IMG/VR virus record: IMGVR_UViG_3300011113_000416
Location: 1 to 36,059 of that record
DNA from: a virus
Strand: one strand, 5' to 3'
Length of the DNA stretch: 36,059 bases
Below are positions 12,482 to 20,962 of the stretch, in pieces. A program made the position numbers and the translations under genes. Under the pieces are notes generated by a model. The model was not told the DNA's origin. It saw only the letters and a list, made by a program, of their open reading frames with translations, and made no database searches. The number at the start of each line of letters is the position of its first letter. The stretch's first letter is position 1.

Positions 12482-12594
12482 GGAGACTCCTGCCGCGCGG
12501 TGGCGGCTCTGGATCGCTCGTGCAGGATGCCGGCGACCAGCCCGAGCAGGTACCCGAGCGCGGCGCAGAAGATGCCGATGGAGAAGGGCGTCAC
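12478..12594 (-). CDS. 38-residue membrane protein
   Basis: It starts at GTG 12594, which overlaps the stop of the glycosyltransferase gene, with GGAGG seven bases upstream. The sequence is MTPFSIGIFCAALGYLLG, continuing hydrophobic to LVAGIL, then a charged tail. It is a single membrane helix with a cytoplasmic tail by the positive-inside rule. The function is unknown. The start region is part of an exact 16-bp sequence also found at 13717-13732. Confidence 0.5.
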   Translation of the reverse strand: MTPFSIGIFCAALGYLLGLVAGILHERSRAATARQESP

Positions 12595-13490
12595 GGCCCG
12601 TCCTCCTTGTTTGGTGGTTTTCGAGACCCGTTAAGTGATAGCACCATCCCGTAATCATTGACCCCTGGGTCTATGACAATGCCCTTCCGGAGCTCAGGAC
12701 GCTGTTTGAACACCTTGTAATTCACATGGTGATGCCACCGCCCATACTTCCAGATCACCTTCGAGCAGTCCGGGTGCATGGCAACAAGCATCTCACTCTT
12801 TGCCTTTGTCCCCTCCTGGAGGTAGAACTCGTCTGTGTTCCCCCCTCTCATGCCTTGTGTCTCTTTTTTCTCCTGGATGAAGGCATTGAACTGCACCGTC
12901 ACATGCCCCGCCTTCAGTGCCCTCAGACACAAGTCGGTGTCTTCGTTGTACCGGCCGCGCCATCTGAACGGAAGGTCGTTTCTGATCAACAGGCAGGAGT
13001 ACACCCTGGTGTTGAGGACATAGGGCGGAAAGGCGTACTTGCTAGGCAGGAAAAAATCATACTGAGGGCCGCCGATAACGACATTTTCGTATCGGCAACA
13101 CCAGTCTTCCATAGCGCGGAATATCGCGCCCCCGGAGACCCGGATCTGAAGGTTGTTGTGCAGCCTTCTAAAAGACCCGATGTTGTCATCCATGACCCAA
13201 TGCCACTTGTGGCCGTTGTCCATAGAATGCTGCCATGCGAAATTACGAGCAGGTCCTGGGCCTGTCTTGCCGTCGTCAAACTTCCCAAACAAATCGTAAT
13301 CGAGCTTATAGCTTTCCGGTAAGACGAGACACCGCTCGGCACCTACCGCAGCGGCGTATTGGGCAAGCTGCGACTCCTCGACAACTACAAAGTACGGGAT
13401 TTTCATGCTATCGAGCGCGCGCGCAGTAAGGCGCATTCGGTGTTCCCACCGCCCCTTCGACACGATGTAGATGGGGTGCTGCGGGATCAC
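12591..13490 (-). CDS. TET-associated-type glycosyltransferase (TAGT family)
   Basis: A 299-residue protein. I choose GTG 13490, which overlaps the upstream stop (GTGA) like its neighbours; GTG 13505 is an alternative. Motifs run in order: IYIVSKGRWEHRM near the start; VVVEESQL; GPARNFAWQHSM; HWVMDDNIGSFRRLHNN with the D-D metal site; NTRVYSCLLIRND; WRGRYNEDTDLCLRALKAG; FIQEKKETQGMRGGNTDE. This is the TAGT family, GT-A-fold enzymes proposed to add sugars to modified bases in phage DNA. No TET/JBP oxygenase or hydroxymethylase is visible here, so the acceptor is open. The gene is distinctly richer in A/T than its neighbours, a sign of recent transfer. Confidence 0.8.
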   Translation of the reverse strand: MIPQHPIYIVSKGRWEHRMRLTARALDSMKIPYFVVVEESQLAQYAAAVGAERCLVLPESYKLDYDLFGKFDDGKTGPGPARNFAWQHSMDNGHKWHWVMDDNIGSFRRLHNNLQIRVSGGAIFRAMEDWCCRYENVVIGGPQYDFFLPSKYAFPPYVLNTRVYSCLLIRNDLPFRWRGRYNEDTDLCLRALKAGHVTVQFNAFIQEKKETQGMRGGNTDEFYLQEGTKAKSEMLVAMHPDCSKVIWKYGRWHHHVNYKVFKQRPELRKGIVIDPGVNDYGMVLSLNGSRKPPNKEDGP

Positions 13491-13720
13491 TTTGTGTCTT
13501 CCCACACCTTATCCGCCACTCTGCGAGCTTCTGCGGCAGGGTACCAGTAGCTCTTTCTTTTTGTACGGCGCTGCTTAATCAGCTCAAAGAACTCGTTCAT
13601 GTCCGATTCGTTCCGGAAGTGGATTTTGACCGTGAACATCGGTCCCTGGTCCTCTTGCTTGAACTCTGGCATCTGGTGCCACAACGGATCGTCAGCGTCA
13701 AAAAGCTCTAGCTTGCTCAC
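13487..13720 (-). CDS. Conserved small protein next to TAGT glycosyltransferase
   Basis: A 77-residue protein from GTG 13720, overlapping the upstream stop. The pattern is WHQMPEF, then KIHFRNESDMNEFFELI, then KSYWYPAAEARR. I recognise this W-x-x-MPEF ... F-x-x-LI ... WYP layout from phage early regions, but know no proven function. It shares the low-GC composition of the adjacent glycosyltransferase gene, so the two may have arrived together. Confidence 0.65.
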   Translation of the reverse strand: MSKLELFDADDPLWHQMPEFKQEDQGPMFTVKIHFRNESDMNEFFELIKQRRTKRKSYWYPAAEARRVADKVWEDTK

Positions 13721-18444: not shown

Positions 18445-18734
18445 AGTGCCCGAAGTGCCGCGGCTCAAGCGAGGTCTTGAAGGTTTACCAGTTCGAGACC
18501 GAGGCTCGGCGTCGGCGCGAGTGTACGAGGTGCGGGTTCCGGTTCAGCACTAGCGAGAAGGTCTGGCGCAGGGTCTACGCTGACGAGACCAGACCGAAGC
18601 CGGCGCACCGCAAGCCGATCCGTAAGGTCGAGGAGCGACCGAGGCGGTCCTACTCCAACTTCGACGTGGTGGCGCTTGAGGGCTATGACCTCGACTACGA
18701 GGATGTCTCGACCTATGTCCATGTGAGCGACTGA
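18441..18734 (+). CDS. NrdR-like zinc-ribbon protein without ATP cone
   Basis: A 97-residue protein with an ATG overlapping the nuclease stop. The N-terminus MKCPKCRGSSEVL ... RRRRECTRCGFRFSTSEKVWRR copies the zinc ribbon of NrdR, including the Arg-rich stretch before the second Cys pair. Cellular NrdR (about 150 residues) continues with an ATP-cone; here a short basic/acidic tail follows instead (KPIRKVEERPRRSY, then YDLDYEDVSTYVHV). It may bind DNA or RNA polymerase, or imitate NrdR at host ribonucleotide reductase promoters. Confidence 0.7.
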   Translation: MKCPKCRGSSEVLKVYQFETEARRRRECTRCGFRFSTSEKVWRRVYADETRPKPAHRKPIRKVEERPRRSYSNFDVVALEGYDLDYEDVSTYVHVSD

Positions 18735-19255
18735 TGGCAGGAACACCAATCAAGCGGGCCAAGCAAGAGAAGGCGCTGGCGATCCTCAAGACCGGGGACT
18801 TCTGGGAGCTGCTCTGGGAGCATCTTGCGCAGGGCAACACCTTGCGGTCTTTCGTGTCTGGCAGCGATGTCCCTTACGGCGTGCTGTGGCGGTACATGCA
18901 GACCAATCCAGAGCTGATGGAGCGGTACGAGGTGGTGCGCAACGCGCGCGCCCTGGTGAACGCTGAACGCATCGAGGAGCTGGCCGAGCGGGTCGAGACC
19001 GAGCAGATGGACCCGAACGCCGCGAAGGTGGCGATGAGTGCGAGGCAATGGCTCGCCGAGCGGATGGACCCGAAGCGCTGGGGCAACAAGATCCAGCAGG
19101 ACATCAAGGTGACGGACACGACGCAGCTGCACCTCGAGGCCGTGCGCAACCTGATGCGGACGGTGAGCGTGCAGGAACCCGAGAAGGGTACGCGCGACAC
19201 CTCGACGGACGCGGCGCTAGGCGCGCGCGGGTCATCAGATGTGGATAACCTGTGA
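18734..19255 (+). CDS. terS: Terminase small subunit
   Basis: A 173-residue protein. The ATG shares its A with the previous TGA. It has an N-terminal HTH-like region (GNTLRSFVSGSDVPYGVLWRYM), a helical middle with NPELMERYEVVRNARALVNAERI, and the diagnostic KVAMSARQWLAERMDPKRWG. The large subunit gene follows after a 309-bp gap. TerS recognises the packaging site; its own 3' end overlaps the DnaA-box-like repeats, so DNA sites in this area could serve packaging as well as replication. Confidence 0.8.
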   Translation: MAGTPIKRAKQEKALAILKTGDFWELLWEHLAQGNTLRSFVSGSDVPYGVLWRYMQTNPELMERYEVVRNARALVNAERIEELAERVETEQMDPNAAKVAMSARQWLAERMDPKRWGNKIQQDIKVTDTTQLHLEAVRNLMRTVSVQEPEKGTRDTSTDAALGARGSSDVDNL

Positions 19256-19283
19256 ACAACCTGTGGATATCCTGTGGATAACT
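19240..19283. repeat. Four tandem 11-bp DnaA-box-like repeats
   Basis: TGTGGATAACC, TGTGAACAACC, TGTGGATATCC and TGTGGATAACT start at 19240, 19251, 19262 and 19273, exactly 11 bp apart. The first and fourth contain TGTGGATAA, the perfect complement of the E. coli DnaA box TTATCCACA; the third has one mismatch and the second two. One-turn spacing puts all sites on the same face of DNA. The array begins in the last codons of the small terminase gene and enters the gap before the large subunit. Confidence 0.85.
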
Positions 19284-19368
19284 TCGGGACAGGCGATCAG
19301 CGCAGCTCGACGCATTCTGTCGCATCGCGCAAGTGCTTGATTATGCTAGCATTGTCGCGTGAAGTGCG

Positions 19369-19384
19369 CATAATGCCCATTATG
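19369..19384. promoter_or_regulatory. Perfect 16-bp dyad, operator-like
   Basis: CATAATG and CATTATG are perfect reverse complements with a 2-bp CC spacer. The half sites also contain TAAT/ATTA elements. It lies in the only A/T-leaning part of the terminase intergenic region, so a dimeric regulator or the terminase could bind here. The first CATAAT could also act as a -10, but no good -35 lies at the right distance. Confidence 0.45.
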
Positions 19385-19443
19385 TCAAACGCACCATCAG
19401 GCGGACACCGAGTGCGTAACCCATTGATTCCCCTCGAAATCGA

Positions 19444-19530
19444 CCCCCCCTGCCCCGTCGACCGCGCGCGGCCGGCGCGGCCGGCCCGGCAGACCCCCCC
19501 CCGGGGGTGGCCCCCGGCGGGGGGCGGGCG
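19444..19530. repeat. Extreme C-run/G-run block with hairpin
   Basis: It holds C7, C4, a tandem 9-mer CGCGGCCGG twice (19467-19484), C9 directly followed by G5, and later G6. CCGGGGG (19501-19507) pairs perfectly with CCCCCGG (19511-19517) over a TGG loop. Both strands have several G-runs, so G-quadruplexes are possible. It is far more extreme than any other part of the window. Confidence 0.6.
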
Positions 19531-19564
19531 CTTGCGTAACCCCACACGGGCCGTCTGAAAAAAA

Positions 19565-20962
19565 ATGCAGAACCCATACCTCGACTTCGTGAAACGCTAC
19601 CACGCGGCCCCTGTGGCCTTCGTGGAGGAGGTGCTTGGGGTCACCCCAGACCCCTGGCAGCGTGACCTCCTGCGCCTTCTGGCTGCGGGCGAGCGAAAGG
19701 TCTCTGTCCGCTCGGGCCACGGCACGGGCAAGTCGACGGTTGCCTCCTGGGCGATGCTCTGGTTCATGCTCACCCGCGTCCCGGTCAAGGTCGTCGTGAC
19801 CGCCCCCACGGCCTCGCAGCTCTTCGACGCGCTCTTCGGCGAGTGCCGCCGCTGGGCCAAGCTCCTGCCCCCCGCCGTGGGGGAGTTGCTCGAGATCAAG
19901 TCCGACCGCATCGAACTGCGCGCCAGCCCCGAGGAGGCCTTCATCTCGGCCAGAACGAGCCGCGCCGAGCAGCCGGACGCCTTGCAGGGCATCCACGCCG
20001 AGTGGGTGCTGCTGGTGGTCGACGAGGCCCCGGGCGTCTCCGAGGCGGTCTTCGAGTCGGCGGGTGGCTCGATGTCGGGCCACAACGCGACGACGCTCCT
20101 CCTCGGCAACCCCACCCGGACGCAGGGGTACTTCTACGACACCTTCCACCGTCTTGCCGGCGAGTGGAAGAACCTGCATGTGTCCTGCCTCGACTCGCCC
20201 CGGGTCAGCGACGACTACGTCAAGGAGATGTCGAGCCGGTACGGTGAGGGCAGCAACGCCTACCGGGTGCGCGTGCTGGGCGAGTTCCCGGTGGCGGACG
20301 ATGACACGCTGATCGGCCTCGAGTTGGCGCAGGGCGCGGTGGACCGTGACGTGGTGCAGAACCCGGGCGCGCCGGTGCTGTGGGGGCTGGACGTGGCGCG
20401 GTTCGGGACGGACTCCTCGGCGCTCTGCCGCCGGCAGGGCAACGTCGTGCTGGGCGCGGTCAAGACCTGGAAGAACCTTGACCTCATGGCGCTGACCGGC
20501 GCGGTGATGCACGAGTGGGACACGACCGACCCGAGGGACCGCCCGGCCGAGATACTCGTCGACAGCATCGGCCTGGGCGCGGGCGTGGTGGACCGGCTGC
20601 GGGAGTTGAGGCTTCCGGCGCGTGGCATCAACGTCGGCGAGTCGCCCGCCTTCAAGGGCCAGTACGCCAACCTGCGCGCCGAACTCTGGTCGAAGGCGAA
20701 GGCGTGGTTGCAGGCGCGCGACTGCAAGTTGCCGCGTGACGAGCGGCTGGTTAATGAACTATCCTCGCCGCGCTATTCGTTCATGTCGAACGGGAAGCTG
20801 AAACTCGAGAGCAAGGACGACATGAAGCGCCGCGGGTTGGCCTCGCCAGACGTGGCCGACGCGTTCGTGCTTACGTTTGCGAGCGAGGCGGCGACCGGGA
20901 GCGGCGCGTATGCGCCGACGTGGACCAAAGCGGTGAAGCGGCAAATCCGGGGAGTGGTATGA
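19565..20962 (+). CDS. terL: Terminase large subunit
   Basis: A 465-residue protein. ATPase domain: Walker A SGHGTGKST (about residues 50-58), VVVTAPTASQ, Walker B LLVVDEAP (about 149-156), and the coupling stretch LLLGNPTRTQGYFYD. Nuclease domain: GLDVARFGTD (about 274-283), ILVDSIGLGAG and SPDVADAFVLTFA, which supply the acidic metal ligands. Length is normal for the family. It would drive genome packaging with TerS and the portal. There is no clear ribosome site at the ATG (GAAAAAAA precedes it), so translation may be weak or use another feature. Confidence 0.9.
   Translation: MQNPYLDFVKRYHAAPVAFVEEVLGVTPDPWQRDLLRLLAAGERKVSVRSGHGTGKSTVASWAMLWFMLTRVPVKVVVTAPTASQLFDALFGECRRWAKLLPPAVGELLEIKSDRIELRASPEEAFISARTSRAEQPDALQGIHAEWVLLVVDEAPGVSEAVFESAGGSMSGHNATTLLLGNPTRTQGYFYDTFHRLAGEWKNLHVSCLDSPRVSDDYVKEMSSRYGEGSNAYRVRVLGEFPVADDDTLIGLELAQGAVDRDVVQNPGAPVLWGLDVARFGTDSSALCRRQGNVVLGAVKTWKNLDLMALTGAVMHEWDTTDPRDRPAEILVDSIGLGAGVVDRLRELRLPARGINVGESPAFKGQYANLRAELWSKAKAWLQARDCKLPRDERLVNELSSPRYSFMSNGKLKLESKDDMKRRGLASPDVADAFVLTFASEAATGSGAYAPTWTKAVKRQIRGVV

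Follow-up and report, generated by a model that had tools for sequence, protein, structure and literature searches.

What is an array of DnaA boxes doing at the boundary of the two terminase genes of a virus? The stretch analysed here, which we call the window, covers 36,059 bp, and the preliminary description had reported in it four DnaA-box-like repeats at an exact spacing of 11 bp, two perfect and two near, partly inside the end of terS. Coordinates and mismatch counts bear this out (Table 1). The four 9-mers follow each other head to tail over 19240–19281 with start-to-start spacings of 11, 11 and 11 bp, and the first repeats encode the last codons of terS, whose stop codon occupies 19253–19255. 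No match to TTATNCACA exists in the window outside the array, and among 2000 simulated order-1 Markov genomes none had at least three boxes (≤1 mismatch) within 60 bp, nor did any of 2000 have two perfect boxes within 60 bp. It is reasonable to read the repeats as DnaA boxes, given their fit to the E. coli-type consensus, which may not be that of the host, and the 11-bp spacing kept in relatives. On the other hand, such a cluster had been called unexpected between terminase genes, and this does not stand: 38 of the 111 DnaA arrays outside the TerS-related family sit at most 3 kb from a related TerL gene. Moreover, the 21-mer TTATCCACAGGTTATCCACAG, made of two perfect boxes at 11 bp, is present in at least 120 IMG/VR contigs, so that adjacent 11-bp box pairs are not rare among phages generally.

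Table 1. Features of the terS–terL region of the window. DnaA box sequences are given as the reverse complement of the window strand; conservation refers to 31 dereplicated relatives.
Feature	Coordinates	Strand	Sequence	Remarks
terS, Sf6-type terminase small subunit	18734–19255	+		PF20901, phrog_1482
DnaA box 1	19240–19248	−	TTATCCACA	perfect; inside terS
DnaA-like box 2	19251–19259	−	TTGTTCACA	2 mismatches; straddles terS stop
DnaA-like box 3	19262–19270	−	ATATCCACA	1 mismatch
DnaA box 4	19273–19281	−	TTATCCACA	perfect
IHF consensus 1	19330–19342	−	AATCAAGCACTTG	perfect WATCAANNNNTTR; ends 20 bp before XerC arm; spacing conserved
XerC-binding arm (predicted)	19363–19373	+	AGTGCGCATAA	dif-like match; 97% conserved
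Central hexamer	19374–19379	+	TGCCCA	plasmid-type, not chromosomal dif
XerD-binding arm (predicted)	19380–19390	+	TTATGTCAAAC	dif-like match; 95% conserved
IHF consensus 2	19417–19429	−	AATCAATGGGTTA	perfect; 26 bp after core
G/C homopolymer hairpin, then GCGTAACCCCACA	19494–19545			repeat analysis; kept in nearly all relatives just before terL
terL	19565–20962	+		phrog_2, phrog_5902

The preliminary description had missed an XerCD core and the IHF sites flanking it. About 80 bp downstream of the array, in the 310-bp gap between terS and terL, the 28-bp sequence AGTGCGCATAATGCCCATTATGTCAAAC displays the layout of XerCD recombination sites, i.e. an 11-bp XerC arm, a centre of 6–8 bp (6 bp here) and an 11-bp XerD arm. 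Its arms are identical to E. coli dif at 19 of 20 scored positions, the best score in 60 simulated genomes being 15/20. Perfect matches to the IHF consensus WATCAANNNNTTR number only two in the window, one on each side of the core. On the strength of its sequence, we class the core as an XerCD recombination site, at which XerC and XerD would carry out recombination.

We then considered the IMG/VR relatives, which were gathered through TerS, the core not being used as bait, and amount to 62 distinct regions, of which 31 remain when dereplicated at 90% identity. The Xer core is present in 62/62, that is, in every complete region. Besides the highly conserved arms, mean column conservation is 89% in the hexamer and 44–63% in the outer flanks and in a slot lying about 100 bp upstream, on the XerC side. 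This slot is occupied by a DnaA array in 41 regions, by a Zur-type palindrome in 17 and by a Fur-type box in four, and is empty in none; all 62 thus carry a motif between −82 and −134 from the core, next to the XerC arm, where the cer/psi class has its accessory region. The Fur-type box, AATGAGAATCATT, is what we take to be a Fur box from general knowledge of such boxes, and the consensus may not be that of the host. The Zur-type box has a 17-nt stretch, ATGTTATAACATAACAC, in common with the Zur site of E. coli hlyII, for which EMSA demonstrated binding (PMC5916954). Over 78 loci, motifs near the core outnumber those in the 508 kb elsewhere for IHF (138 vs 5), DnaA (220 vs 3), Zur (18 vs 0) and Fur (8 vs 0); as these counts take in close relatives, they show linkage and not independent events.

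In some Fur- or Zur-type phages the core is also followed by a second Fur box or by a short DnaA array. In three loci (L047, L186, L282) the core is flanked by Fur-type palindromes at roughly equal distances (about −115 and +91), an arrangement that suggests a looped complex. Zur- and Fur-type relatives also carry TTTTATGCAC repeated at −83 and −62 from the core, readable as a weak DnaA box or half an Arg-box.

The preliminary description had proposed to count the repeat over the genome and in relatives. The array is the only such cluster in the window, and it is absent from 21 of the 62 distinct relatives, an outcome that the preliminary description had itself named as refuting. The slot then holds a Zur or Fur box, and the core is always kept. 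By this test a reading based on DnaA alone is weakened. The array is probably not a stand-alone origin; it is a swappable part of a larger phage element.

The strongest rival explanation is nevertheless a replication origin, since there are also DnaA arrays near terL that no Xer core accompanies. The array would load host DnaA, IHF would bend the DNA and the phage primase-helicase would take over, the Xer core being a separate neighbour. The window does encode a PrimPol-helicase, its only DnaA and IHF sites cluster here, the array is a DnaA-box cluster of the kind expected of oriC, and DnaA boxes with 2-bp gaps resemble ordered oriC arrays. Most of the near-TerL arrays tested outside the family are likewise without a Xer core. 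An origin, however, leaves unexplained why a strong array is replaced by a Zur or Fur box in a third of the relatives (21/62), and in phage Mulock the element adjoins terL though the O/P-type replication genes are far away. We consider this explanation unlikely. Arrays of up to 11 boxes, about 0.8–1.5 kb from TerL and with no recognisable Xer core, were seen at L375, L325, L343, L412 and about 25 more loci. The array was discarded as a hallmark of the Xer element, most scanned near-TerL array loci having no core above shuffles. Since no Xer core is recognisable at the terL-side arrays of many phages, the DnaA array may have a function of its own.

Could this function be that of a sink, a datA-like element lowering active host DnaA during infection? 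The window combines DnaA boxes with IHF sites, and datA is built from the same two elements. In E. coli there is support for a box-dense region titrating DnaA (PMC12371093). Yet the phage array has only three to four boxes, Zur or Fur boxes substitute for it in the same slot and its position is tied to the Xer core, so that we hold a sink to be very unlikely. Thus, the DnaA-box reading of the repeats is kept, while the origin or sink function initially attached to them is not the best supported one.

The geometry of the element points towards plasmid Xer sites. Spacings were measured on a set that takes in regions retrieved with the dif pattern as well: between the end of the upstream IHF site and the core they are 20 bp in 56 regions, 19 bp in 15 and 7–9 bp in nine, the last spacing being about one helical turn shorter than 19–20 bp. 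The proximal DnaA box starts at −90, −99/−100 or −110, i.e. in 10-bp steps; Zur boxes mostly start at −102/−103 or −111 and Fur boxes at −103 to −122, and the centre of the slot is at about −94 to −113. In ColE1 cer the distance from the XerC site to the upstream Arg-box is 98 bp (PMC2409434), and the centre of that box, as measured here, is at −106. The phage slot and the cer Arg-box hence occupy the same position. No Arg-box was found in the window slot with up to the 4 mismatches of the functional cer box; over the slots of the freshwater family, the best matches have 4–6 mismatches against mostly 5–8 in shuffled slots, and in the window this is not better than chance. PepA, for its part, is without a usable consensus (PMC2409434). 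Since an Arg-box was sought in the slot and not found, we do not file the window site as cer or psi; by analogy, it is best read as a site that would work like them, though outside that class.

Similar Xer cores are found beside terL in Klebsiella temperate phages (Mulock, ST340-VIM1phi10.1 and others) and in E. coli chromosomal prophages, e.g. GGTGCGGGTAA-CAGTCA-TTATGTTAAAT. In these Klebsiella and E. coli prophages the Xer-type site is internal and intact, and Mulock and ST340-VIM1phi10.1 each encode an integrase at another place in the genome. The terL-side site is therefore not their attP, being internal and, in those fully annotated, accompanied by an integrase. In EKP1, a gene placed like terS is followed by two boxes spaced by 11 bp (TTATGCACG at −88 and TTATTCACA at −77), then by the core and the terminase gene (terL). 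The enterobacterial motif TTTATGCAYGNTTTATTCA can be read about equally well as a DnaA pair or as an Arg-box. A second TerL lineage (L353 3315–3560, L376, L364, L389 and others) combines DnaA boxes, a weaker dif-like core, AGTTAACATAATGGACATTGTATTAAAT, and a perfect IHF site; this element lies upstream of the terminase, between PrimPol and the terminase genes, several members having further DnaA boxes. In other phages (L203, L257) the Xer-type site is upstream of terS or several kb from terL, and the stretches scanned in the distant phages MW202879, MW202711, MW202496 and phiM5 contain no dif-like site.

Xer-like sequences were also noticed in other settings. Phage C72C1 (L112 9847, minus strand) has a weak core with 6 mismatches and the centre CGTCCA between terS and terL, to which we give no weight. 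Good cores occur in gene-poor stretches of two large lytic-type coliphages, Escherichia phage 18-1-2 (L444 3001–3031) and SLUR75 (L445 3001–3027), away from annotated terminase. Two E. coli plasmids of 47–48 kb (L447, L448) carry GGTGCCGATAA-CGTCCA-TTATGTTAAAT, with repA about 1.4 kb upstream in L448.

Dif-like arms naturally raise the question of integration, the site serving as attP for XerCD-mediated insertion at the host chromosomal dif, as with CTXphi or Jorvik-type phages. Phages integrating via XerCD are indeed known (PMC5357621, PMC10589892), the core resembles dif and no integrase was found among the window proteins scanned. The central hexamer, on the other hand, is unlike that of chromosomal dif. 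The phage type is YRCCCA, whereas in 185 genomes of one GTDB class nearly all arm matches have centres such as TGTATA, TATATA or TACATA and the phage-type centre appears once; identity with chromosomal dif was rejected on this ground. Among 84,980 genomes, most occurrences of the phage-type core are in Acinetobacter contigs, some of which are named plasmids, with a few other taxa making up the rest. The dif pattern identified no host of the TerS family in these genomes, and a TerS peptide-pattern scan of the same set detected no prophage of the family, which also argues against integration, as does the internal, intact site of the enterobacterial prophages. An attP role appears improbable. The idea of a phage-plasmid was dropped, the PLSDB matches to TerL being below 60% identity and unspecific. 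One other window gene (12591–13505, minus strand) encodes a TET-associated glycosyltransferase (PF20691), suggesting modified bases in the phage DNA.

The location in the terS–terL gap, together with IHF sites, could also fit a packaging signal, i.e. a pac or cos region bound by TerS, in which the repeats would serve TerS or IHF, as at lambda cosB. The direct terminal repeat of phiM5, just upstream of terL, speaks for this, as does the conserved G/C hairpin with GCGTAACCCCACA, which is a possible packaging element, regulatory element or assembly-breaking structure. However, TerS is 67–82% identical across the relatives and yet the repeat slot is swapped wholesale, and the conserved part is the Xer core, not a TerS iteron. 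That the array is the packaging signal seems highly improbable; like integration and the DnaA sink, it is less supported than the origin. Among about 84 right contig ends of relatives no fixed genome terminus was apparent; 12 of them fall 0.5–1 kb past the start of terS, a mild enrichment for which the G/C hairpin could account. Other lineages (L203, L212, L353) likewise have similar G- or C-runs close to their Xer core.

On balance, we regard it as somewhat probable that the element is a Xer site of the plasmid type, resembling cer and psi but carrying non-canonical accessory modules, placed by the expected packaging start and used in the manner of P1 lox for genome circularisation and multimer resolution. 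At plasmid Xer sites, ArgR or ArcA plus PepA build the accessory complex onto the core (PMC11724359). Here the DnaA array would be the accessory module beside the XerC arm, its slot being filled by a Zur or Fur box in relatives. Host XerCD would bind the core, and IHF bends on either side would fold onto it the accessory complex, made of a DnaA oligomer in this phage and of Zur or Fur in its relatives, so that two direct copies of the site on one molecule could synapse and recombine. Two such copies are conceivable: the site adjoins the terminase genes, close to where packaging is expected to start, and should therefore be part of the terminal redundancy or direct terminal repeat. It would thereby be duplicated, either by terminal redundancy (Sf6-type TerS) or by a direct terminal repeat such as that of the related phage phiM5. 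Joining of the two copies by host XerCD would make the injected linear genome circular; multimers would be resolved later and the genome kept single-copy. The core, the motifs, where they lie and how well they are conserved are what the sequences show, and each step after these, beginning with protein binding, is inferred. In a strictly lytic phage, concatemer resolution could be harmful to packaging, which counts against circularisation.

More tentatively, tailed phages of several lineages may carry terminase-side sites for host XerCD with a swappable regulator socket (DnaA, Zur, Fur, possibly ArgR), where host proteins that signal replication or metal status would both drive and gate circularisation or monomerisation; we see this as possible, but rather doubtful. 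The coupling with packaging, suggested in the preliminary description, survives in another form, since several lineages of phages have the element next to their terminase genes. If the proposed role is true, integrase-free and integrase-bearing tailed phages would have in common a way of making their genomes circular or monomeric by means of the host enzyme for chromosome resolution. The set of Xer accessory proteins (ArgR, ArcA, PepA) would be extended to DnaA, Zur, Fur and IHF, and a simple assay of accessory-protein interchangeability would be at hand. The enterobacterial versions, in Mulock-type phages and E. coli prophages, make the idea testable in E. coli. A Xer site beside terminase in a tailed phage was not found in searches of the open-access literature, which is weak evidence of novelty.

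Several known systems can be set beside the element. With cer (ColE1) and psi (pSC101) it shares a 28–30-bp XerC-centre-XerD core, an accessory region by the XerC arm and, with its centre some 100 bp upstream, a site for a host regulator (PMC2409434, PMC11724359). It differs from them by DnaA, Zur or Fur modules in place of ArgR or ArcA, by IHF sites flanking the core and by its residence in a tailed phage beside terminase genes. Chromosomal dif has nearly identical XerC and XerD arms; however, its centres are of NNNATA types instead of YRCCCA, and the phage site has accessory motifs and lies outside the chromosome terminus. The proposed job, circularising the infecting genome and resolving multimers, is that of P1 loxP-Cre, and loxP is also situated near the packaging start. 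P1 relies on a phage recombinase, whereas the site described here would use host XerCD. Borrowing of host XerCD at a dif-like site is common to the integrative phages CTXphi, VGJphi, TLCphi and Jorvik and to vibrio non-tailed phages; theirs is attP, while the similar site in integrase-bearing temperate tailed phages stays internal. Acinetobacter plasmid pdif sites resemble the element in the core, which with the phage-type hexamer occurs for the most part in Acinetobacter contigs including named plasmids; pdif modules, in contrast, flank mobile genes. Finally, datA and oriC arrays have the same head-to-tail DnaA boxes and IHF sites, whereas the phage array is linked to a Xer core and replaceable by Zur or Fur boxes.
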